A DNA stretch of 30,455 nt from Saccoglossus kowalevskii. Taxonomy: Eukaryota; Hemichordata; Enteropneusta; Harrimaniidae. A model generated the notes under the pieces. It saw only the letters and a program-made list of their open reading frames with translations. It made no database searches and had not been told where the DNA came from. Of the stretch, positions 18,539-28,830 are shown piece after piece; positions within the stretch are counted from its first letter, which is position 1; each line of letters opens with the position of its first letter. Where the stretch lies: NCBI RefSeq assembly GCF_000003605.2, contig NW_003141311.1:312460-342914 (forward strand), read 5' to 3'. A program made the translations under genes and the position numbers.

Positions 18539-18796
18539 CGGCTGAAAATTCATAATATTGCATACGAAATGTGTTTATAAATATTCGATTTCAATAGAAA
18601 ATATATACTGTGAACATAGCTAGAATGAGCAATATATTGGCACCCTTGTTGTATTAATTATCACTATCGTGCACATATTTCCAATTCTAATACATATCAT
18701 CACACTGGTGGTGGAAATATATGGGTTTATTAATAACTGATGCTTGTAGGTTGTTTTCGGTTAACACGTTTTTTTGTCAACTTCTGCTCGTTTCAG

Positions 18797-18805: not shown

Positions 18806-18889
18806 ATGAAACCTATCATATCATTTAGGATTCTTCTTCTAGTAGTTGTCATCTACTTCCCACACTGCCTTATAATGGCTCCTGCGAAG
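18806..18889 (+). CDS. Exon 1: signal peptide (residues 1-28)
   Basis: The start codon is preceded by an A-run and lies 9 bases after a strong pyrimidine tract ending TTTCAG. The 28 codons give a short n-region with Lys2 and Arg8, a hydrophobic core of about ten residues (ILLLVVVIYF) and a small-residue end, A-P-A-K. Cleavage after Ala27 would fit the -3/-1 rule. The donor is AAG|GTAAGT, phase 0. This is the first ATG that joins in frame to exon 2. A second Met codon at residue 24 would lose the signal peptide. Confidence 0.82.
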
Positions 18890-21800
18890 GTAAGTTAGTT
18901 AAACTGTAAATAAAAAATATGTCAGTGACAAAACATAGTACAACTTTATTGTTGATGCATATAGGTAACGGGACAGAAGTGGGAGTCTGGAATAGGTCCG
19001 TGCAGCAACCCACACTCAACGCAACCTCGACATTTTAACACGCATTTCCAGTGCTTTGTAATTTCGACGAGGTAATATTTTACGCGGCATGGTTCCCTGT
19101 TTTTCAAAATTCACAGCCCCAAATAAAAAATAAATAAATATTTGTAAATTCACGAGAATGAAAATGTGATTCCCTTCTAGGAAGTGAACAAATCCAATAT
19201 ACACAAAGAAACACGCCACAGAGAGAAAAGGAAAACAGTAATAGAAATGGCACAAGGTGAGAGACATTTCACAGAAATCAACCAATCGAAATCGACATAA
19301 CAATCAAGCTTAGATTGAATTTGATGTTCTTAGCGTTTTATGTAAGTTGTTTAAACAGGTGTGCAATAATAATTCATTTTTTCAGATGTCACTGTTATCC
19401 CCAAAATTAAATGCGAATCTGTGGGAGGAGCCTGTCGTTATAGGTGGTGTTACAAAGGAGAAATAAATGACCCAAAACCTTCTATCTGTGGAAACTTACA
19501 AGACGTTTGCTGTATAGGTGAGTATATTTGCATAACTGGGCCATCTATTTGTTTTGATTCGATTCACAGACACCGCTTTGTGCTCTAGTTGCGAAATAAC
19601 ACAGCAATAAAAAAATATTACGACATTGTGCAAACAACTGAGTTTGACATTCAGAAATGTGTGGGCATTCAGAAATATATTAAAATAATTCACAACAAGA
19701 TGTATACAATATGCACACCAATAACAGTTTTCACAATTACCGCATACACGTGAATAATTAAAGACAAAACATAATATTATATATTCCCTATAGTTTTGCA
19801 TTTTATCTGTATTGAATTACGGCTTAAAAAAGATAATTGAAATATACCGTATTTTCCTCCATAAAAATGTATGAATGTTACACTGTCGTAAACGTAAATG
19901 TTTCTATCGTTTTGTTAAATATATCTAAAGGTGGAAATTACGGATTTACGTCATCAATTATGTCCTTGACAAGCAGACAATGTAATTTTAGATTGCAAGC
20001 AGGAAACATAAAATTAGCTTTGGATAGCGTGATATAATCTCACCGACACGTGTTACCAATAATTATTGTTAAAAATCCATCTGTCGTTATGCGCAAATAA
20101 AACCGTGAACACTTGCTATGTCGATGGATTTATTATAAAAAAACAAAAATTCTGTACTGACTAAATAAATATTGCGATTAAATTTAAGTGCTCGGTGACC
20201 TTGTCCGAAGACGGTCAACTCCGGGGGTATTTATATTTATAAATATTTATTTTCCTGGCACTATATATTTGATTCGGTAGTGATATGTTATGAGGCGTAT
20301 CCATACACATAGTCCTGATGTCGGCTGAATTTGACGCGATTATGGCATAAACTTGTTTCTGTTTGTTTTAATGCGCACTGTTTGTATATATTATTCCAGT
20401 ATAATATCATGTTTCAGAAACATTTTTGACAACACGTTCATGTAAACCTAAATCGGTTTCGTTGTTAAAATGTAATCACATACGATTCTGTAGATTCGCA
20501 CACCATCCTTTTTTTTTATAATTGAGTTGTTACAAACTGAGTAATTGGTATTAGTAACTTGAAGTTGTACTAAAGAAAATACATCAGTACTAACAAATTC
20601 CGAGGTTTCTATTTAATGTCAATATCCTGTTTTTTAAGAATCGCAATTTACCAGTCATCGTTTATATTATCCAAACTTATATATACCAACACTGTGCTCC
20701 TGCCAACATGTTCAACAATTATATTAGTAGAAAGTAGAAAAGTTTTGTTCTCCACTCTATTGAATGTTTATAGTAATATTTACCCTTTCAAAATATTTCA
20801 ATTGTTTTTTTCAAATCTGCCATTTTCTTTTGAATTACTAATGGTCGCCCTTAATGATTTCAAGGAAATCTATGGAATTTCGAATAAACATAGCAACTCG
20901 AAAATTAATTTCGCAACGGAGCTGTTTACAGATTAAGGTGTCGTTGCCATTTTGTGCATTCGTAGTGACGGTCATGGTGGACATAGTAATAATTCTCTAA
21001 CATGGCAGTATTTGCAACTCCGTTCAATTATTTTAGCCAGATACCTTGAACCGGTCTAACAACTATCAATGTGGTCGCACATGTTAGTAACATATTTGTA
21101 TTCAATACTGGGTACCTGTATGATACTATGTTAAACATTGCGTGAAAATAACACCCTACATACACATCTCCTGTTTTACATGACTTAACAATATATTTCC
21201 ACTGTGATAATAATATGTCCCATGCCATGCCATACGCAACACTGCTGGTGATACAGCATGCTTTTAATGTCTGAATATACCGACTATGAAAGGTTACAGC
21301 GCGAGAAGGATTAGCCAAAGCTTTCCGCCCGCACAAATGGTCGCGTGATCATAAATATTACCAAACATGCACAAGCTATATAGACATTGAGATACAATAA
21401 TGTAATTTGTTCAGGTGGCCGTCTGTTTAAAATAACGATTTGTTGTTTTTGTTAACAGAAAATCCCCGTCAGTTGAAGTGCAATCTCCAATGCGGGGGAC
21501 AATGTCGATCGAAATGTGAAAAAGGAGAAGTACTTGCAAGTGGTGATTGCAAATGTTACGGTTTACAGAATAAATGTTGCACAAGTAAGTAATTGAAACG
21601 TATGGGCATGCGTTAATCTGGGATAGCATGAATAATAATTTACATGCGTTGGATGGTGGATTAGACGACTAACTCGAACATACATATCACGTGACTGAAA
21701 TTCGCCAATGATTTTTCGTGTAACTGGTCATTCCAAATTATTCACTCTGCGCGGCGTCCGATACAAATTTCTTTATTAGAGGAAAGCTCTCGAACTTGAC

Positions 21801-24800
21801 ACAAGTAGTAGCAATCGTCGTAGAAAACGGGCATTTGACGCTAGTGGTTAGTCATTTCATCCAACCCAGCTACAATACAGCAAGTAATGACGCGGTATTA
21901 AACTTCACAAAGGAACCGCGGACATCTGTGTATATCTAGCGGATTCTTAGTGCGGTAAACCCTGTTTAACAACGGCCAAGTCACGAATGTATCAAATGTT
22001 AATGAGTTAGAAACTGATTTTTAATATGTAATTTCTTTGTCATTTTTAATAAAAGAACTGTTGTCATGCCGATATATATATATATACAAATTAAACAAGC
22101 AAATACAAATAAAAACTATAAAAAATAATCTTTCTATTAATGTCCAAGAATGATGTGGAAATAACATCATAACAAATCGACAATTCGAAACCAAAATACA
22201 TCATTGAAGGTAACAAAAATAACAGAAGATATTCGACAATACACAAGTACATGATAAACTGTATTGCAAAACGTAGTCAAAGAAAGACGCATTGTATAAT
22301 ACGTAGAAATATCCACAGACTCAAATTATATCCGCTTTCATAGTCATAAAGGAAGTTTTCAAGCTCAAGAACAAATGACAGACCAATAAACTTGCAATTG
22401 ACAAGTGATAGGATAAAATGACTGGCAGATATATGCACCTCGTGGTATACATGATACCGGGACGTTAAGAAATAGTAATCGTGCTTCGATTCGATTATTT
22501 GACACACAATGCAGTATACGCGTGTGGCTGCAAGGTGTCACTGGGATTAAATTGTGTGGTCGTTTGCATTCCCTTCAATTGAGACACTTTCTAGCGGTTT
22601 CTATGGTGAAGATTATTTAAAATTGTACAAACTATCATCGTTTGTCACGAACAAGTCCATTTCGATTTGGGGGGCTGTGTTTATACCATATTGCGATTTT
22701 ATTTGAAATGATGTTTGCTCTAATATCTGGCACCAATCTTGTTACAGAGGACACATCAATTGTTAGCTGCACAGCCTCCTGCGATGGTAAATGTAGAAAG
22801 ACCTGCGGTCAACACGAAATTGTGGCATCGCAAGGTTGTACATGCGAAACTGGGGTCTGCTGCATAGGTAGGTGTTGTTAAATTATTAAACTGTGAACAT
22901 TTGGGTTGGAAAAAAATATTATAATTATGCTGGTGACAGTATTTGGGCAGCTGACTAATTAACAAATTGTACGATTGCGATACATCATTTTGGAAGTTCC
23001 AGTGGCGCTGAATTCCGAGGTTATTTTCATGAACTGAATATATCTCCACAGAGAATCCGTTATTATTACACTGCAGTGAGCAATGTGGCGGCATGTGCAG
23101 AAAAAATTGTAAAGCTGGTGAGATCAGGTCACCCGGGGACTGCAAATGCCAAGGGAATACGCGCTGCTGCATTCGTGAGTATTATTGTATATTCTATGTA
23201 ACCAAAAGCGAAATAAATCATTATGCTTATTTATTTTGAGAAGTTGATCATTCGGCTTAGACATTTTTAGGTCTAAGAACTTCCCAGTAATTTGTCATTC
23301 CAAGTAATTGCACTAAAGTATAATTATTTCTTACATCACTCTGCAGACAATTGTAATTATTTTTATAACTTTAAGCTCGAAAATGCACACGATCCGGTCA
23401 AATTGATATGTGATCCGATGCATTCGTAGAACACGTTTATATGATTATACTTTTTATGTTGTTTCAATAGCTGATCCAGAAAATGTCCATGTCCATTGCG
23501 TTGACGACGAAGAAGGAATCTGTCGAAATGGTCAATGTGAAGAAGAAGAGGAACAGGCACCTGATATAATGATCTGCGACAGAGCTGCGGATGTATGTTG
23601 TATCGGTTAGTAAACCTTCACGTGTAGATTCACGATCAACACTTTTAGAAATTACGTGCATAACTGATGAAAAATACTCATTGTGTTTTAATTTTATTTA
23701 ATTCTAGACGACGAGCATGAAATAACTTGTGAGAATTCTTGTAATGGCGTGTGCCGTTCTACTTGTCGAGCACTTGAAATGCAAGCCCCGGGAGAATGCA
23801 AGTGTACAAAGGAAGGCAAGAAGTGTTGCATAGGTAAGCACCATTCTCATTATTCTGCAAGCAGTGTGAAAGAACCTCATTTTACCATGTTAGCTTCAAT
23901 ACCTGATTTGCAGAAACTTTCTTCAGGATGTTTTTTATTGATTCTCTACATCGACAAAAAAAAAACATTGTACAGCAACTCAGGGGTCTCCTGTCTATAA
24001 TTTATACATTACATTAAAAACATGAATTGTATTGGGTAGTAATGTTTGCAAAATGTGTCTTTGATTGTCTGGACAGGCTAGTTAAACAAACTGATAAAAT
24101 AACTAATCAATTTTAAGTGCATGTAATGTAATTCCAAATGTTACATTGCAATTTTTAGAAAATCCTAGTATTTTGGAGTGCAATCAAGCGTGCGGAGGAA
24201 GATGTAGAACCGAATGTGAAGAAGGTGAAATGCAATCTTCTGCCGATTGTAAATGTAGCAAGGGAAAATGTTGTATAGGTGAGATGCTTGCAATTACATG
24301 ACATGTTCTAAGGTTTTGCTGTGGGACATTACCCAATTTTGCTTTAATACTGTGCTACATAAAAAAACACTGAACAATATATTTCTGATATAGCCCAGCA
24401 TTTTCATTAGAGGAGATTACTTGATTAGGACTAAATGTGACATATGCTGATCGCGACTCTTTTTCACTGTGTACATAACCAAATGCTGTCTATTTCAAAT
24501 TTGTCTGTTCATTGCATATCGTCAAGTTTTCAAATTACTCTGTCATTATATTTCTAAAATGTGTTCAAATGTGATATCTTTGTTATTGTTTTGGTATTTA
24601 ACGAATACTTCTTTCATTTAGCTGATCCCAGTTATCTTCAATGCAACCAGGCCTGTGGCGGAAGATGCCGAAATAAATGCCGAGAGTTAGAAGCTGAAGC
24701 ATCGGGACACTGTAACTGTTTGGGGAATAAAACATGCTGCATAAGTAAGTATTCATTGATTTAAAAACTAACTAGTATTGCAAAATGTGGATACCCTTAA

Positions 24801-25647
24801 TTATATTTTTTGCTGTTTGTTAATATTGTAATAAACATAACACACTTGACCTCTGTGCTCAATGCGTGCGCATACTAGAGAAATAGTAACAGATAAATTG
24901 ATTGCATTCATTCACTCGCTAAAGCGTGTTTATTTATTTATTTGTCAATTATATTTATAATTGTAAAGTAACATTCATTCATTCATTCATTTATTTGTTT
25001 CAGCCAACCAACATGTGTTGAATTGTAAAACATGTGGGGGTGAGTGCAAAGCGGAATGTGGCCAGGGAAAGATAGAAGCTGCTGGTTCATGCAAGTGCCT
25101 CACAGATTACAGCCAGAAATGTTGCATAGGTAAGACACTATACATCAATAAATCCCGTACTTGCAAAAACAAATTACAACCTATTCAAAACTACTAAAAA
25201 CATTGTTTAATGTTATCATAACTTATACGATTTGTTTGCTGCAGATGATCCGACAGAAATTAAATGCGAGAAGCACGGTAAAGGACAATGCAGACCACTC
25301 TGTGGTAAGGGCTTCCAAAGAGCGCCAGTAGACTGGAAGTGCCAAGATGAAGGCACCATGTGTTGTATTGGTAAGTGAATCCAACAACTGTGAACTGTGT
25401 TCTAATTAAGCTATCGAAATCTCCTCATGGATTTGACCCACAAGATATTTGAGTATCCAATCAATGATGTCTGTATTAATGTTGGGGGATACCTTACTTT
25501 GCAGACAATCAACAAGAACTTTCCAAGAGCTTAAGGCGTCAAGTTGATCTAGAAATCGACGAGGAGTTAAGAGATGACGAAGCGTTTCTTCCCCCGACGA
25601 CTGGTCCTCCATCCACACCAGGATATTTATTGGACGAAGTCGAATAA
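18806..25647 (+). CDS. Secreted tandem beta-defensin-like protein, 10 cysteine domains, 13 coding exons
   Basis: Spliced CDS: 18806-18889, 19181-19256, 19386-19517, 21459-21584, 22748-22867, 23052-23174, 23471-23605, 23708-23833, 24159-24278, 24622-24744, 25004-25129, 25245-25370, 25505-25647. These sum to 1560 nt (519 residues plus TAA) with GT-AG borders and a consistent frame throughout. Residues 1-27 form a signal peptide. Residues 28-53 form a basic pro-segment with an REKR site at 42-45. Residues 54-472 hold ten cysteine domains, one per exon, with 74 cysteines. Residues 473-519 are an acidic tail. The spacing C-x6/7-C-x3/4-C-x12-C-x4/7-CC, usually with GG-x-C before the second canonical cysteine, is that of the beta-defensin fold; the C-terminal domain of big defensins and the spiny-lobster defensins are invertebrate examples. 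Role is inferred: secreted innate-immunity, protein-binding or venom-type factor. Charges of the domains are mixed, so a classic cationic microbicide is not assured. I recognise no named ortholog. Confidence 0.88.
18890..19180 (+). other. Intron 1
   Basis: GTAAGT to CTTCTAG, 291 bp, phase 0. Nothing coding seen; a short A/T-rich run lies near 19125-19145. Confidence 0.75.
19181..19256 (+). CDS. Exon 2: basic pro-segment with furin-type site (residues 29-54)
   Basis: The acceptor is CCCTTCTAG and the donor CAAG|GTGAGA. The 76-nt exon converts phase 0 to phase 1. This is exactly what is needed to join exon 1 to exon 3, where a direct join would read a wrong frame to an early stop. It encodes a Lys/Arg-rich stretch in which Arg42-Glu-Lys-Arg45 fits the R-x-K/R-R furin consensus, followed by Lys46. 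Cleavage there would release the defensin-like array from a short N-terminal propeptide. It is short and without a conserved domain, so confidence rests on frame logic, splice sites and the processing motif. Confidence 0.75.
19386..19517 (+). CDS. Exon 3: domain 1, six-cysteine beta-defensin-like (residues 54-97)
   Basis: Acceptor CATTTTTTCAG, donor ATAG|GTGAGT, phase 1-1. Cysteines at residues 63, 70, 75, 88, 95 and 96 give C-x6-C-x4-C-x12-C-x6-CC, with GG-x-C before the second cysteine. The first two spacings and the x6-CC end match human beta-defensin 1, and the middle loop is a few residues longer. This is the domain that most directly identifies the fold. It has aromatic residues (Y, W, Y) around the third cysteine and a near-neutral charge. 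Confidence 0.88.
19518..21458 (+). other. Intron 3 (largest in the coding region)
   Basis: GTGAGT to AACAG, 1941 bp, phase 1. I looked for skipped or decayed cysteine exons (CC-I-GT, GG-x-C patterns) on the plus strand and found none. It holds a 106-codon plus-strand ORF at 20616-20936 and 101- and 102-codon minus-strand ORFs, none with a recognisable domain, and short AT palindromic runs near 20230-20250. Confidence 0.7.
21459..21584 (+). CDS. Exon 4: domain 2, eight-cysteine defensin-like (residues 98-139)
   Basis: Acceptor GTTAACAG, donor ACAA|GTAAGT, phase 1-1. The 42 residues follow the eight-cysteine pattern C-x3-C-x3-C-x3-C-x10-C-x-C-x6-CC with CGGQC in the middle. It is mildly basic by count. 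It ends CCT rather than the CCI of nearly all sister domains. It is separated from domain 1 by the largest coding-region intron (1.94 kb). Confidence 0.88.
21585..22747 (+). other. Intron 4
   Basis: GTAAGT to TTACAG, 1163 bp, phase 1. It contains a short TA run near 22073-22085 and no supported gene. Confidence 0.7.
22748..22867 (+). CDS. Exon 5: domain 3, eight-cysteine defensin-like (residues 140-179)
   Basis: Acceptor TTGTTACAG, donor ATAG|GTAGGT, phase 1-1. Pattern C-x3-C-x3-C-x3-C-x10-C-x-C-x4-CC in 40 residues, with DG-x-C replacing the usual GG-x-C. The genomic reading frame is also open upstream through the intron, which makes a longer ORF there, but the spliced start is fixed by the acceptor and phase. 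Confidence 0.87.
   Translation, partial: RTHQLLAAQPPAMVNVERPAVNTKLWHRKVVHAKLGSAA
23052..23174 (+). CDS. Exon 6: domain 4, eight-cysteine defensin-like (residues 180-220)
   Basis: Acceptor CTCCACAG, donor ATTC|GTGAGT, phase 1-1. The 41 residues carry C-x3-C-x3-C-x3-C-x10-C-x-C-x5-CC with CGGMC, then a G-E-I turn after the fourth cysteine, shared in form by several domains. Mildly basic. A 138-codon antisense ORF over this and the previous exon is a shadow. Confidence 0.87.
23471..23605 (+). CDS. Exon 7: domain 5, acidic six-cysteine defensin-like (residues 221-265)
   Basis: Acceptor GTTTCAATAG, donor ATCG|GTTAGT, phase 1-1. At 45 residues it is the longest domain. Pattern C-x7-C-x4-C-x12-C-x6-CC. 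It carries 14 Asp/Glu against two Arg, including five consecutive Glu after the third cysteine. Neither extra cysteine of the eight-cysteine class is present. The charge is opposite to that expected of a microbicidal defensin, so the domain may be a charge-balancing, metal-binding or spacer module (inference). Confidence 0.84.
23708..23833 (+). CDS. Exon 8: domain 6, eight-cysteine defensin-like (residues 266-307)
   Basis: Acceptor TTAATTCTAG, donor ATAG|GTAAGC, phase 1-1. The 42 residues show C-x3-C-x3-C-x3-C-x10-C-x-C-x6-CC with NG-x-C. The first-to-second cysteine linker (DDEHEIT) is acidic, whereas the C-terminal loop (TKEGKK) is basic. Confidence 0.87.
24159..24278 (+). CDS. Exon 9: domain 7, eight-cysteine defensin-like (residues 308-347)
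   Basis: Acceptor GCAATTTTTAG, donor ATAG|GTGAGA, phase 1-1. The 40 residues follow C-x3-C-x3-C-x3-C-x10-C-x-C-x4-CC. It shares the ten-residue block CNQACGGRCR with domain 8, yet the two DNA copies differ by seven synonymous changes, a sign of protein-level selection. No ORF of 60 codons exposes this exon; it was found by reading the sequence. Confidence 0.87.
   Translation, partial: KILVFWSAIKRAEEDVEPNVKKVKCNLLPIVNVARENVV
24622..24744 (+). CDS. Exon 10: domain 8, eight-cysteine defensin-like (residues 348-388)
   Basis: Acceptor TTTCATTTAG, donor ATAA|GTAAGT, phase 1-1. Pattern C-x3-C-x3-C-x3-C-x10-C-x-C-x5-CC in 41 residues. The linker starts A-D-P, one of the [EDAP]-[ND]-P linkers that recur before domains 2, 4, 5, 7, 8 and 10. 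Confidence 0.88.
24972..24992 (+). repeat. ATTC microsatellite in a splice acceptor tract
   Basis: About four to five ATTC units directly before TTATTTGTTTCAG, the acceptor of exon 11. Length change here would alter the branch-point to acceptor distance. A TTTATTTATTTATTTG run lies just upstream at about 24930-24944. Confidence 0.75.
25004..25129 (+). CDS. Exon 11: domain 9, eight-cysteine defensin-like (residues 389-430)
   Basis: The acceptor is TTTGTTTCAG, whose pyrimidine tract contains an ATTC microsatellite. Donor ATAG|GTAAGA, phase 1-1. Pattern C-x2-C-x3-C-x3-C-x10-C-x-C-x7-CC: one residue is missing between the first two cysteines relative to the other eight-cysteine domains, and the last loop is the longest. 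Confidence 0.87.
25245..25370 (+). CDS. Exon 12: domain 10, six-cysteine defensin-like (residues 431-472)
   Basis: Acceptor TTTGCTGCAG, donor ATTG|GTAAGT, phase 1-1. Pattern C-x7-C-x3-C-x12-C-x6-CC in 42 residues. It aligns without gaps to the eight-cysteine domain 2. Against that domain, the first extra cysteine is Gly and the second is Trp, so both extra cysteines are replaced together. Near-neutral overall. Confidence 0.87.
25505..25647 (+). CDS. Exon 13: acidic C-terminal tail and stop (residues 473-519)
   Basis: Acceptor CTTACTTTGCAG, phase 1 entry, TAA at 25645-25647. The 47 residues have no cysteine. They contain a dibasic LRR pair, then an Asp/Glu-rich stretch, then a Pro/Thr-rich segment (PPTTGPPSTP) and an acidic end. 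About 13 acidic residues against four basic. It has no membrane or GPI-type hydrophobic end, so the product should be soluble. AATAAA at 25643-25648 overlaps the stop and is probably too early to be the poly(A) signal. Confidence 0.82.
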
Positions 25648-26861
25648 AAAATCTAAAGGGATTTACAAGATTGCGCATGAAGAGCACGTGTATATCTGTA
25701 TATATCTGTGACACGTGTATATATTATAAACATATATATATAGTATATATATATATATATATATAAACACATACATACTATATGTATATATACTATATTC
25801 AATAATGTAAATATATAATGATAATAACTAACAATCTTATTATCTTTATGCTAATACGATTATGTAGAGTAAATATATAAGGGTCGATAAAGAAATTAAG
25901 CAAGGTACAGTGATTACTCAAAAGATCGAACTAAAGTTGTGTAATTACATAGTTGCCCACCGTTATCAACTTTATTGACCTTTTTCTGTGTATATCATTT
26001 ACAATGGTTAGAGTGAGTTTTCTGAATACTACCAGATACGGCAAATTAGTCAATAAGCGGAGATGGAGGTTAGATACCGTTGTTTATGTTAAACTCTGCC
26101 ATATATATGTAGACAGAGGGGGTAAAGAATATTTTTGGCGAACCACTGCATTTATGTATTACATCAATGCATCAATGATATATGACTTCAACACTGTAGT
26201 CTATATTTCAGGAAATGGTCAGCTTTTCCAGCTAATACACTTATTATACTATGTACTTCTTTAATATACAAGTATTTAAGAAAGATTGACAATTGACGTG
26301 TATTGTGTTACATAAATGTGAATTGCATCATGTTAAAAGTTTCCACCCTATATCAACAAACGAAAGTTTCATAGGTCTGTATTCTATTCCGACTTAGTTA
26401 AAAGGTTAGACTATGGCATGGTATGGTATTGATGATAATTAGGCTATTACCTGTGTCATATACTTTGCTAGGGATGTATGGTGACATCAAAGTCAATATA
26501 ACTCTAGAAAGTAGAATCAACATTCAATTCTATTTAACCTACTGTAAGAATAACTTGTGGTGATTTGGTAACCATCAGTAAAGGGAGACCAGTTCGTATG
26601 AAGTACCGAGAAAACATGTCCATTCCCTGTGGCTCATATCCTGTAGTATAACTGTTGGCTACATATCTTTGGCCAGTCTATTGAAATATTTAATGATATG
26701 GGAGCTATTCCTGATTCTCGTATCCTACAATCTTACATTCTATTTTTCTGAAAATAACAAATATTAAAAAAAATATGTATTAATAACTTTCTTTCTCTTT
26801 AAAACTATCTCAATTTGTATTAACTTCGTTGTAATTTCTGTACATATATATTTCCACCACA
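25648..26861 (+). other. 3' flank and probable 3' UTR; no further gene
   Basis: No clear AATAAA is seen in the first several hundred bases after the one that overlaps the stop. A 103-codon ORF at 25953-26264 has no recognisable domain and begins at TTG; its first ATG is internal. The transcript end cannot be placed. Confidence 0.4.
25730..25800. repeat. TA microsatellite in the 3' flank
   Basis: An uninterrupted TA run of about 11 units at 25744-25765 is flanked by impure TATATG/TATATA runs. It begins about 85 bp after the stop codon and lies in the probable 3' UTR. Two CACGTGTATAT boxes (25685, 25712) precede it. Confidence 0.8.
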
Positions 26862-27330
26862 TTGACCCCTTTGGTTAGAAACACTATATCATATATTCTT
26901 GAATTAACTTTTGGGATAAGAACACCATGTACTTTTGGATCAACCCTTGGGGCTAGAGACATCATGTAACATATTCTTATCATATGATATATTTTTGGAT
27001 TAACCCTTTGTGATCGTGACATCATGTATTCTTTGACTAGCCCTGGAGCAGACATTATACAACATATTTTCACTTAACGCCCGGGACTATAGAAACCGTA
27101 TTATATATTCTTGGTTAAAACCGCAGGGGCTAGAAACATTACATCATACTTTATTTTGGAATTAAGCATTGGGGATGGAGACATCATATCATATATTCTC
27201 TGTTTAGCCCTGGGGCTATAGACATGGTATCATAACATTCTAGGATTAACACCGGGAACAGAGACATTATTTATATCCTATATTCTGGGTTGACCCCGGG
27301 ATAGACACTTCATATACTATATTCTTGGAT
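26862..27330 (+). repeat. Minisatellite, about 11 diverged copies of ~43 bp
   Basis: Each unit reads roughly TTAACCC-TGGGGCTAGAGACATCAT followed by a TATCATATATTCTTGGA-like end. Anchors of the GACATCAT type lie at about 26878, 26921, 26957, 27016, 27050, 27091, 27131, 27178, 27222, 27261 and 27302, a mean period close to 43 bp. Copies are diverged in length and sequence. The 87-codon minus-strand ORF inside is caused by the repetition. Confidence 0.75.
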
Positions 27331-28099
27331 GTATAGGTGTCGTTAAGCTACTCTGGGCAGCATATAATGAATGAACAGGCGTAAATCGTAGTTAAAAATT
27401 ACCGCCGAAATCTCAATCGAGAAAAGAAAGAGAGACATCTACGAGATCTACCGCCATCGCGTCTGAACACTGAGAGTATTGGCATTAAAAGAATGGAACA
27501 CTGTTTGAGAAAAAAAAAATCAAATCTCGTGGCTCCTTTTCTTGCAACAAGGTCTCGGCGGCCATTTTTTTCTAAGGTCTATTGAAACTTGACAAAAGAT
27601 ATCTTGTAAAAGTTGTTTTCCATTTAAATCAAAATCCATTTTAATCTGGGCAATGTTGGGACTATAAACAATTGTTTTTGTTTGTTTAGCTGTGTAGTAA
27701 ATATGTATATTTTATTTTATGTTCACTAAATTACAATCACTGAAATTCAACCCTGATATGTGTATTTACTTTTAGGCTAACTCTTTGTCGCTATGGCTAC
27801 CGAATAAACTCATTTACACAATTCTTTCACCTAACTATGCCGTTTGATTTGTTCTTCTGTATATTCAGTAGTTGACAAACATTGGTTATTTTGTACATTG
27901 AAATATCAAACCATTCAACTAATATTTGTATATATGATATATTTAGGATTTTACACTTTGTGAACTTGTGTAATATCTCTCCAAGTACAAGTAACGCTAA
28001 CGCGTATGCAAATGATTTTGCTTTTATTTTTTTAGAAAAAAACATGCATAATGACTGTGTACACATCAAACATTTAATTCTGCAGTTATTTTCTCTTTA
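27331..28099. other. Non-coding flank between minisatellite and LINE remnant
   Basis: Nothing recognised. GGCGGCCATTTT at 27557-27568 also occurs at 9-20, at the start of the window. Confidence 0.5.
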
Positions 28100-28830
28100 C
28101 CCATGCCCCTCGGGAGTCAGTACTTGCTCCAATATTGCTCAAATTGTATACACCATAAACGACGACGACGATACTCAAAACTACCTGTTTTTCGACTTGA
28201 ATTATCTTGATAGTAATATATCACAAGTGGAAAGTGATATCCAGACTCGGATGACGACGAGTTTCTTAAAGTTGAACTCTGACAAAACTGAACTATTATA
28301 TTCCTGGTTCACGTCAAAACATGTGTGAATTCAATATACCCTTCATACAGATAAATTGCAGCGCCATTATCGCTGCAACGTTCCTTAATACGGTATCCCT
28401 CAAGTCAACATAAAGAAACATCAACGCAAAGTCCAGAAGACAACAGCTCATTTAATGCAAAAATTAAAAAGTGTGATCAGTTACATTGGTTGCCGATGTA
28501 ACAAGATTTCTCTAATAATCTTTCTCCCCATTCATGAGACAACTCCTCCATATATTAGTAACCTACTGACACTTTATAAACCTGCTCGTAATATTTCGGC
28601 TTTTTTAATATTAAATAAAATGTTATCAAATATACCACTAGATACTACAAAACATTTGGGCAGCGTGCTTTTTATTATGCTCTTTCTTAGTTATGAAACG
28701 ATCTATCATTTGATGTAAAGGTCCCAATATTCAAACGGAAGTTTATTTTTGTTTAAACTCGATTATTATTATTGAGAATTGTTTATGCGTTATTAAGCGC
28801 CTTTCAGCATTTAGTTTTTTTTATTAAAAA
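28100..28830 (+). mobile_element. CR1/L2-like LINE remnant: RT palm to 3' end
   Basis: Pieces in shifting frames follow the order of a LINE reverse transcriptase. S-V-L-A-P-I-L-L-K-L-Y-T lies at 28117-28152. D-D-D-D-T-Q-N-Y-L-F-F-D (from the Y/F-ADD motif region) and F-L-K-L-N-S-D-K-T-E-L-L lie at about 28160-28300. L-H-W-L-P-M is near 28481, P-P-Y-I-S-N-L-L-T-L-Y near 28548, G-Q-R-A-F near 28658, N-D-L near 28698, and a final A-F-Q-H-L near 28800. The expected YADD has decayed, and there are several stops. Non-functional. The 148- and 87-codon ORFs here are pieces of it. Confidence 0.7.

Follow-up and report, generated by a model that had tools for sequence, protein, structure and literature searches.

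A predicted secreted protein of Saccoglossus kowalevskii with ten tandem beta-defensin-like domains

A single gene in the hemichordate Saccoglossus kowalevskii is predicted to encode a protein of 519 residues in which ten cysteine-rich, beta-defensin-like domains follow one another behind a signal-peptide-like start. The gene spans positions 18806 to 25647 on the forward strand of the window, by which we mean the whole stretch of 30,455 nucleotides analysed here (contig NW_003141311.1, positions 312,460 to 342,914). On balance, and with modest confidence, we favour the view that this single gene yields an intact, secreted ‘polydefensin’, a chain of ten beads with the trans-defensin fold that would function as a multivalent binder. 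What is new is a polydefensin-like protein of ten beads with a mixture of six and eight cysteines, whereas tandem defensins (AvBD11, those of lizards, helofensins and X-tox proteins) and the general architecture of secreted cysteine-rich repeat proteins (SCREPs) are already known.

The gene model, rebuilt from the sequence, comprises 13 exons that together give a spliced product of 1560 nt, corresponding to 519 residues and a stop codon. All 12 introns have GT-AG borders. Exon 1 ends in phase 0 and exon 2 ends in phase 1. All ten domain exons are in phase 1 at both ends, such that one domain equals one symmetric exon. These ten exons are free of stop codons and frameshifts, and they contain 74 of the 75 cysteines of the predicted protein, with the remaining one residing in the signal peptide. 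An earlier note on this DNA, made from its letters alone, had proposed a 13-exon gene for a ten-domain protein with the same length and the same number of domain cysteines. The splice sites and phases of the rebuilt model agree with that proposal, and the rebuilt translation likewise supports a signal-peptide-like start and a single predicted gene.

Leave-one-out searches demonstrate the relatedness of the ten domains. Specifically, a profile made from nine domains was searched against the open reading frames of 20 residues or more that the window contains in its six frames, and the omitted domain was retrieved ten times out of ten, with E values ranging from 2.9e-7 to 4.8e-14. These searches uncovered no further copies in the window, where the best other reading frame reached an E value of 0.21. 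From these scores we conclude that the repeat is real and that the window carries ten copies of it. Comparison of the domain exons gives mean identities of 0.53 for codon position 1, 0.60 for position 2, 0.34 for position 3 and 0.26 for the fourfold sites of shared residues, while the mean amino-acid identity among the domains is 0.38. When the introns are compared with each other, no similarity is detected at an E value of 0.01. Given these codon-position identities, fourfold sites and dissimilar introns, the domain exons are, as judged from their sequences, old duplications kept under protein-level constraint. The array accordingly grew by old duplications of symmetric phase 1-1 exons, as indicated by the exon symmetry, the saturated fourfold sites and the introns that can no longer be aligned. 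A tree of the ten domains has support on none of its seven inner branches, and therefore we claim neither an order of duplication nor a single origin for the six-cysteine beads.

Each domain is about 42 residues long and includes a core of six cysteines, four single and two forming a terminal CC pair, that the alignment reveals to be invariant in all ten. Also invariant throughout is the glycine that precedes the second core cysteine by two residues, and nearly so are an arginine directly after this cysteine and an isoleucine directly after the CC pair. Domains D1, D5 and D10 carry six cysteines and have a third loop of 12 residues, whereas D2, D3, D4, D6, D7, D8 and D9 carry eight. The two additional cysteines are both present in seven domains and both absent in three, a distribution that independent domains would show by chance with a probability of 1 in 120, although paralogous domains lack such independence. 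Because these cysteines are present or absent together, they probably pair to form a fourth disulfide in the seven domains that have them. The disulfides of beta-defensins connect C1 to C5, C2 to C4, and C3 to C6. The linkers, counted from the last cysteine of one domain to the first cysteine of the next, are eight residues long in eight cases and ten in one.

Fold predictions with AlphaFold2 were obtained for two of the ten domains, the six-cysteine D1 and the eight-cysteine D8, with values for the predicted local distance difference test (pLDDT) of 83.1 and 85.2, respectively. In the models, a helix (9-12 or 7-11) accompanies a pair of strands with at least three residues each and a middle strand of two residues. 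When D1 is compared with known structures by Foldseek, every one of the best 15 rows is a beta-defensin or a platypus defensin-like peptide. Of the 46 rows in total, 41 belong to vertebrate defensins or to these platypus peptides (21 beta-type, 20 alpha), many of them mutants of one protein. For D8, 24 of 32 rows belong to the same groups (15 beta-type, 9 alpha), and four big defensins and one helianthamide are also present. The top structural matches of both domains are beta-defensins, with every match individually weak. Beta-defensin and big defensin genes both have a phase-1 intron immediately upstream of the cysteine-rich region (PMC7203481), and an intron of this phase precedes all ten domain exons in this gene. 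Because of this intron position, the fold and the terminal CC pair, the beads are nearer to trans-defensins than to the insect-type cis-defensins. The earlier note had called the domains beta-defensin-type, and a beta-defensin-like (trans-defensin) fold is indeed supported by prediction for the two modelled domains, even though seven of the ten domains have eight cysteines rather than six.

Curated profiles do not extend this assignment to a named family. The earlier note had suggested a search with Defensin_beta profiles. When the ten domains were compared with Pfam after removal of the first residue, Defensin_beta_2 appeared for one domain with an E value of 1.9 and Meleagrin for one domain at 0.13, neither reaching its cut-off. 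Pfam searches with the whole protein and with six of the ten domains yielded Meleagrin at 0.12 for D2 and TSP1_2 at 0.1 for D5, none at the cut-off, and no scanned profile library puts a name on a domain. Because the curated profile matches miss the cut-off, we refer to the domains as beta-defensin-like and not as members of a named Pfam family. The TSP1_2 match, which covers residues 1-29 of the acidic domain D5, was rejected. Repeats of the WAP, Kazal, Kunitz and EGF types were likewise rejected, there being no Pfam match to any of them. Among PDB sequences, the ten-domain profile has three weak matches, of which the first is helianthamide (E value of 0.36, profile positions 11-40 of 41) and the third is CpoBD13 (E value of 8.3). 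The only PDB-sequence matches of the full protein are two chains of muscleblind (E values of 0.047 and 0.099), which we discount as matches of cysteine composition, and neither D1 alone nor D10 alone has a match in this collection. A protein database search with the 519-residue query produced 1931 candidates, none with an E value of 1 or less, and a search with the ten-domain alignment produced no candidate. This empty result likely reflects a gap of the database for animals, and it is not proof of an orphan protein. One domain exon of the ten was compared with a phage DNA collection and had no match there. Rfam and tRNA scans also came back empty.

A different identity for the beads is suggested by a known SCRiP structure, which equals the beta-defensins in structural Z score when compared with the modelled domains. 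Perhaps the beads, above all the seven with eight cysteines, are not beta-defensins proper and instead represent a SCRiP-like domain such as the repeated octocoral domain U-GRTX-Esi24 (Cltx-2-like), in which case the protein would belong to a multi-domain family that has already been noticed in passing and might be a toxin-like or structural protein of secretions. SCRiPs and the octocoral domain share with the seven larger-set beads eight cysteines and a similar size, and the octocoral domain is likewise repeated within proteins (PMC6627431, PMC11896702). Compared by description only, U-GRTX-Esi24 could be the same module. However, SCRiPs carry a C-terminal cysteine triplet (PMC6627431), whereas a pair occupies this position in all ten domains, and the three beads that lack the additional cysteines still align on the same six-cysteine core. 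We thus regard this identity as unlikely, though it deserves serious consideration.

An intact polydefensin would be produced as follows. The signal-like start would direct the protein to secretion, a short basic propeptide would be removed at the REKR site, and an acidic tail would perhaps be removed at the SLRR site. A scan for dibasic sites locates pairs at these two places, of which SLRR follows D10, and within the domains D3, D4 and D6, but in none of the nine linkers. Because the nine short linkers have no such site, the chain is expected to stay whole as a protein of about 48-52 kDa with 37 disulfides, in which seven beads would have gained or kept an extra disulfide. By computation, the chain after REKR has 474 residues, a mass of 51.7 kDa, a net charge of -17 and an isoelectric point of 5.16. 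If also cut at SLRR, these values become 439 residues, 47.8 kDa, -7 and 5.79. Net charges of individual domains extend from +3 (D2) to -12 (D5), with D4 at +2. The earlier note had suggested multivalent binding, and the linkers make an intact multivalent protein plausible.

Could the chain instead serve as a precursor reservoir that is cut into ten small antimicrobial peptides? This is the main functional alternative, and the furin-like propeptide site and single-exon domains do resemble those of defensin precursors. In addition, a dibasic site is present at the end of big defensin prodomains (PMC7203481), cleavage separates the domains of a double SCRiP precursor in an octocoral (PMC11896702), and D2 and D4 are mildly cationic. 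Opposing this possibility are the linkers devoid of dibasic sites, the acidity of the chain and especially of D5, and the example of the lepidopteran protein Spod-11-tox, which is not processed into bioactive defensins and has lost antimicrobial properties (PMC2728511). We therefore consider a peptide reservoir to be quite improbable.

If secreted intact, the polydefensin may exploit its diverged loops for multivalent binding, contacting at the same time either several targets or a single repeated one. Most likely it would act outside the cell as a multi-headed binder or enzyme inhibitor in defence or in secretions. Membrane killing seems less likely than a role as an enzyme inhibitor or in coat binding, given the acidity of the chain and the existence of enzyme inhibitors among proteins with this fold. 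The tick carboxypeptidase inhibitor is one such precedent on a beta-defensin-like fold (PMC6339383), and helianthamide, an alpha-amylase inhibitor according to its PDB title (4x0n), is a second. Moreover, the tandem-repeat cysteine-rich peptides with a known function to date are reported to share high avidity (PMC6262176). The argument from charge is weakened by the fact that big defensins range from anionic to cationic (PMC7203481), and so charge alone is not decisive.

The clearest architectural precedent is the ‘defensin rosary’ of lepidopteran X-tox proteins, each of which is secreted and carries 5 to 11 imperfect defensin motifs, with eleven in Spod-11-tox (PMC2728511). This is a likeness of many defensin motifs in one secreted protein and not of membership. 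X-tox motifs are cationic, of the CS-alpha-beta (cis) type and have C-x-C ends, whereas the protein described here has trans-type beads, CC ends and an acidic chain. Indeed, the X-tox motif C-x4-C-x3-C-x7-G-x-C-x3-K/R-C-x-C (PMC2728511) is matched by none of the ten domains, all of which end in CC and have other spacing. Nasonin-2 and -6 also contain several defensin-like repeats in one protein, four to five with one exon each (PMC2853521), but these too are of the CS-alpha-beta (cis) type.

Among vertebrates, tandem beta-defensin domains number two in AvBD11, three in VkBD39 of the Komodo dragon and four in the helofensins of the Gila monster, which have been called ‘polydefensins’, and they occur also in the green anole (PMC9138766, PMC6716921). 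AvBD11 likewise devotes one exon to each domain, and some of the Komodo defensins with a single domain have eight cysteines (PMC9138766, PMC6716921). These proteins have two to four domains, compared with ten here, seven of which have eight cysteines and the other three the 12-residue third loop. In the literature searched for multi-domain or repeated defensins, of which our coverage was partial, we found no beta-defensin chain with more than four domains. Rusticalin and the tick carboxypeptidase inhibitor are extracellular proteins that each have two beta-defensin-like domains in tandem (PMC6339383). The two repeats of rusticalin have the spacing Cx6Cx6-7Cx8Cx7CC and are joined to a C-terminal peptidase domain (PMC6339383), which excludes it as a model for a ten-domain protein whose last exon encodes 47 residues and which as a whole has no Pfam (peptidase) match. 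Big defensins and panusins share with this gene the trans-defensin cysteine core, the phase-1 intron before the cysteine-rich exon, and a prodomain dibasic site, but have one cysteine-rich domain (PMC7203481). The hydrophobic N-terminal domain of big defensins is missing here, where exon 2 supplies only a charged stretch of 25 residues. Helianthamide is the best profile match among PDB sequences, with a score that is insignificant alone, and it comprises a single domain. This protein comes from a sea anemone.

The earlier note had held that beta-defensin domains are normally single or arranged as in big defensins, a view that the tandem examples above do not bear out as worded, and that no named family is known with this architecture. 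The latter stands insofar as the scanned profile libraries name no domain, but SCREP is a name for the general architecture (PMC6262176). With ten tandem cysteine-rich domains, no dibasic site in its linkers and a predicted secretion signal, the protein has the features of this class. SCREPs are an architecture class and not a homologous family, and the word ‘defensin’ is absent from the main text of PMC6262176. The earlier interpretation is thus partly supported, being right in outline while overstating how alone this protein stands. More tentatively, and short of thinking it probable, we propose that the gene represents an undescribed family of intact ten-bead trans-defensins, with mixed six- and eight-cysteine beads, that is convergent with lepidopteran X-tox proteins and in which the loops of each bead have diverged to bind a different target.

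The reason for which certain lineages join defensins into one chain has been described as an unanswered question (PMC9138766). A ten-bead trans-defensin chain would be a counterpart of the cis-defensin X-tox proteins, and this second, independent system would make it possible to ask whether joining defensin beads trades killing for multivalent binding. Likewise, beads of one chain that have gained or lost two cysteines together amount to a natural experiment on this fold.

The exons and their products are collected in Table 1. Between exons 1 and 2, an exon-like open frame with AG and GT borders (18965-19071, forward strand) is out of phase with its neighbours and is perhaps a cryptic or alternative exon. 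As an exon of this gene it was rejected, given that it ends in phase 2 and leads to a stop codon when joined to either exon 3 or exon 2. That the model is partly wrong, with exons 1 and 2 belonging to another transcript, the array divided between two genes, or expression lost, could be argued from this stretch, from the long introns 3 and 4 (1941 and 1163 nt), and from the fact that the gene is modelled from genomic sequence, but we judge it very unlikely given consistent phases over all 13 exons, the stop codon that the exon-like stretch runs into with or without exon 2, and ten old exons that remain open under protein-level constraint. Upstream, a pyrimidine-rich stretch at 18765-18796 (forward strand) ends with TTTCAG ten bases 5′ of the start codon, which suggests a splice acceptor and hence that the 5′ untranslated region contains an intron.

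Table 1. Exons of the predicted gene, with positions in the window
Exon	Feature	Position	Strand	Basis
1	Predicted signal peptide, residues 1-28, hydrophobic core SFRILLLVVVIYF	18806..18889	+	Translation, GT donor in phase 0; signal peptide judged by inspection
2	Propeptide; putative furin-like cleavage site REKR at residues 42-45	19181..19256	+	Phase 0 to phase 1, AG/GT sites, dibasic scan
3	D1, six Cys, spacing 6-4-12-6-0	19386..19517	+	Translation, cysteine count; AlphaFold2 pLDDT 83.1
4	D2, eight Cys, 3-3-3-10-1-6-0	21459..21584	+	Translation, cysteine count
5	D3, eight Cys, 3-3-3-10-1-4-0	22748..22867	+	Translation, cysteine count
6	D4, eight Cys, 3-3-3-10-1-5-0	23052..23174	+	Translation, cysteine count
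7	D5, six Cys, 7-4-12-6-0, net charge -12	23471..23605	+	Translation, cysteine count
8	D6, eight Cys, 3-3-3-10-1-6-0	23708..23833	+	Translation, cysteine count
9	D7, eight Cys, 3-3-3-10-1-4-0	24159..24278	+	Translation, cysteine count
10	D8, eight Cys, 3-3-3-10-1-5-0; sequon NKT at residue 383	24622..24744	+	Translation, cysteine count; AlphaFold2 pLDDT 85.2
11	D9, eight Cys, 2-3-3-10-1-7-0	25004..25129	+	Translation, cysteine count
12	D10, six Cys, 7-3-12-6-0	25245..25370	+	Translation, cysteine count
13	47 residues; SLRR dibasic site, then acidic tail (35 residues, net -10) and stop codon	25505..25647	+	Translation, dibasic scan

Elsewhere in the window, inspection by eye shows a unit some 60-70 bases long that recurs loosely at 26860-27330 on the forward strand. 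Tandem Repeats Finder lists no repeat there, and so either the copies have diverged or there is no array. An open frame of 150 codons at 27876-28328 on the same strand is reminiscent of the end of the reverse transcriptase of a long interspersed nuclear element (LINE), with no support from Pfam. Finally, an open stretch of 41 codons at 1226-1348, also on the forward strand, looks like the beginning of a DEAD/DEAH-box helicase domain, with a Pfam DEAD match (E value of 0.0012) below the cut-off, and is perhaps a gene fragment or pseudogene.

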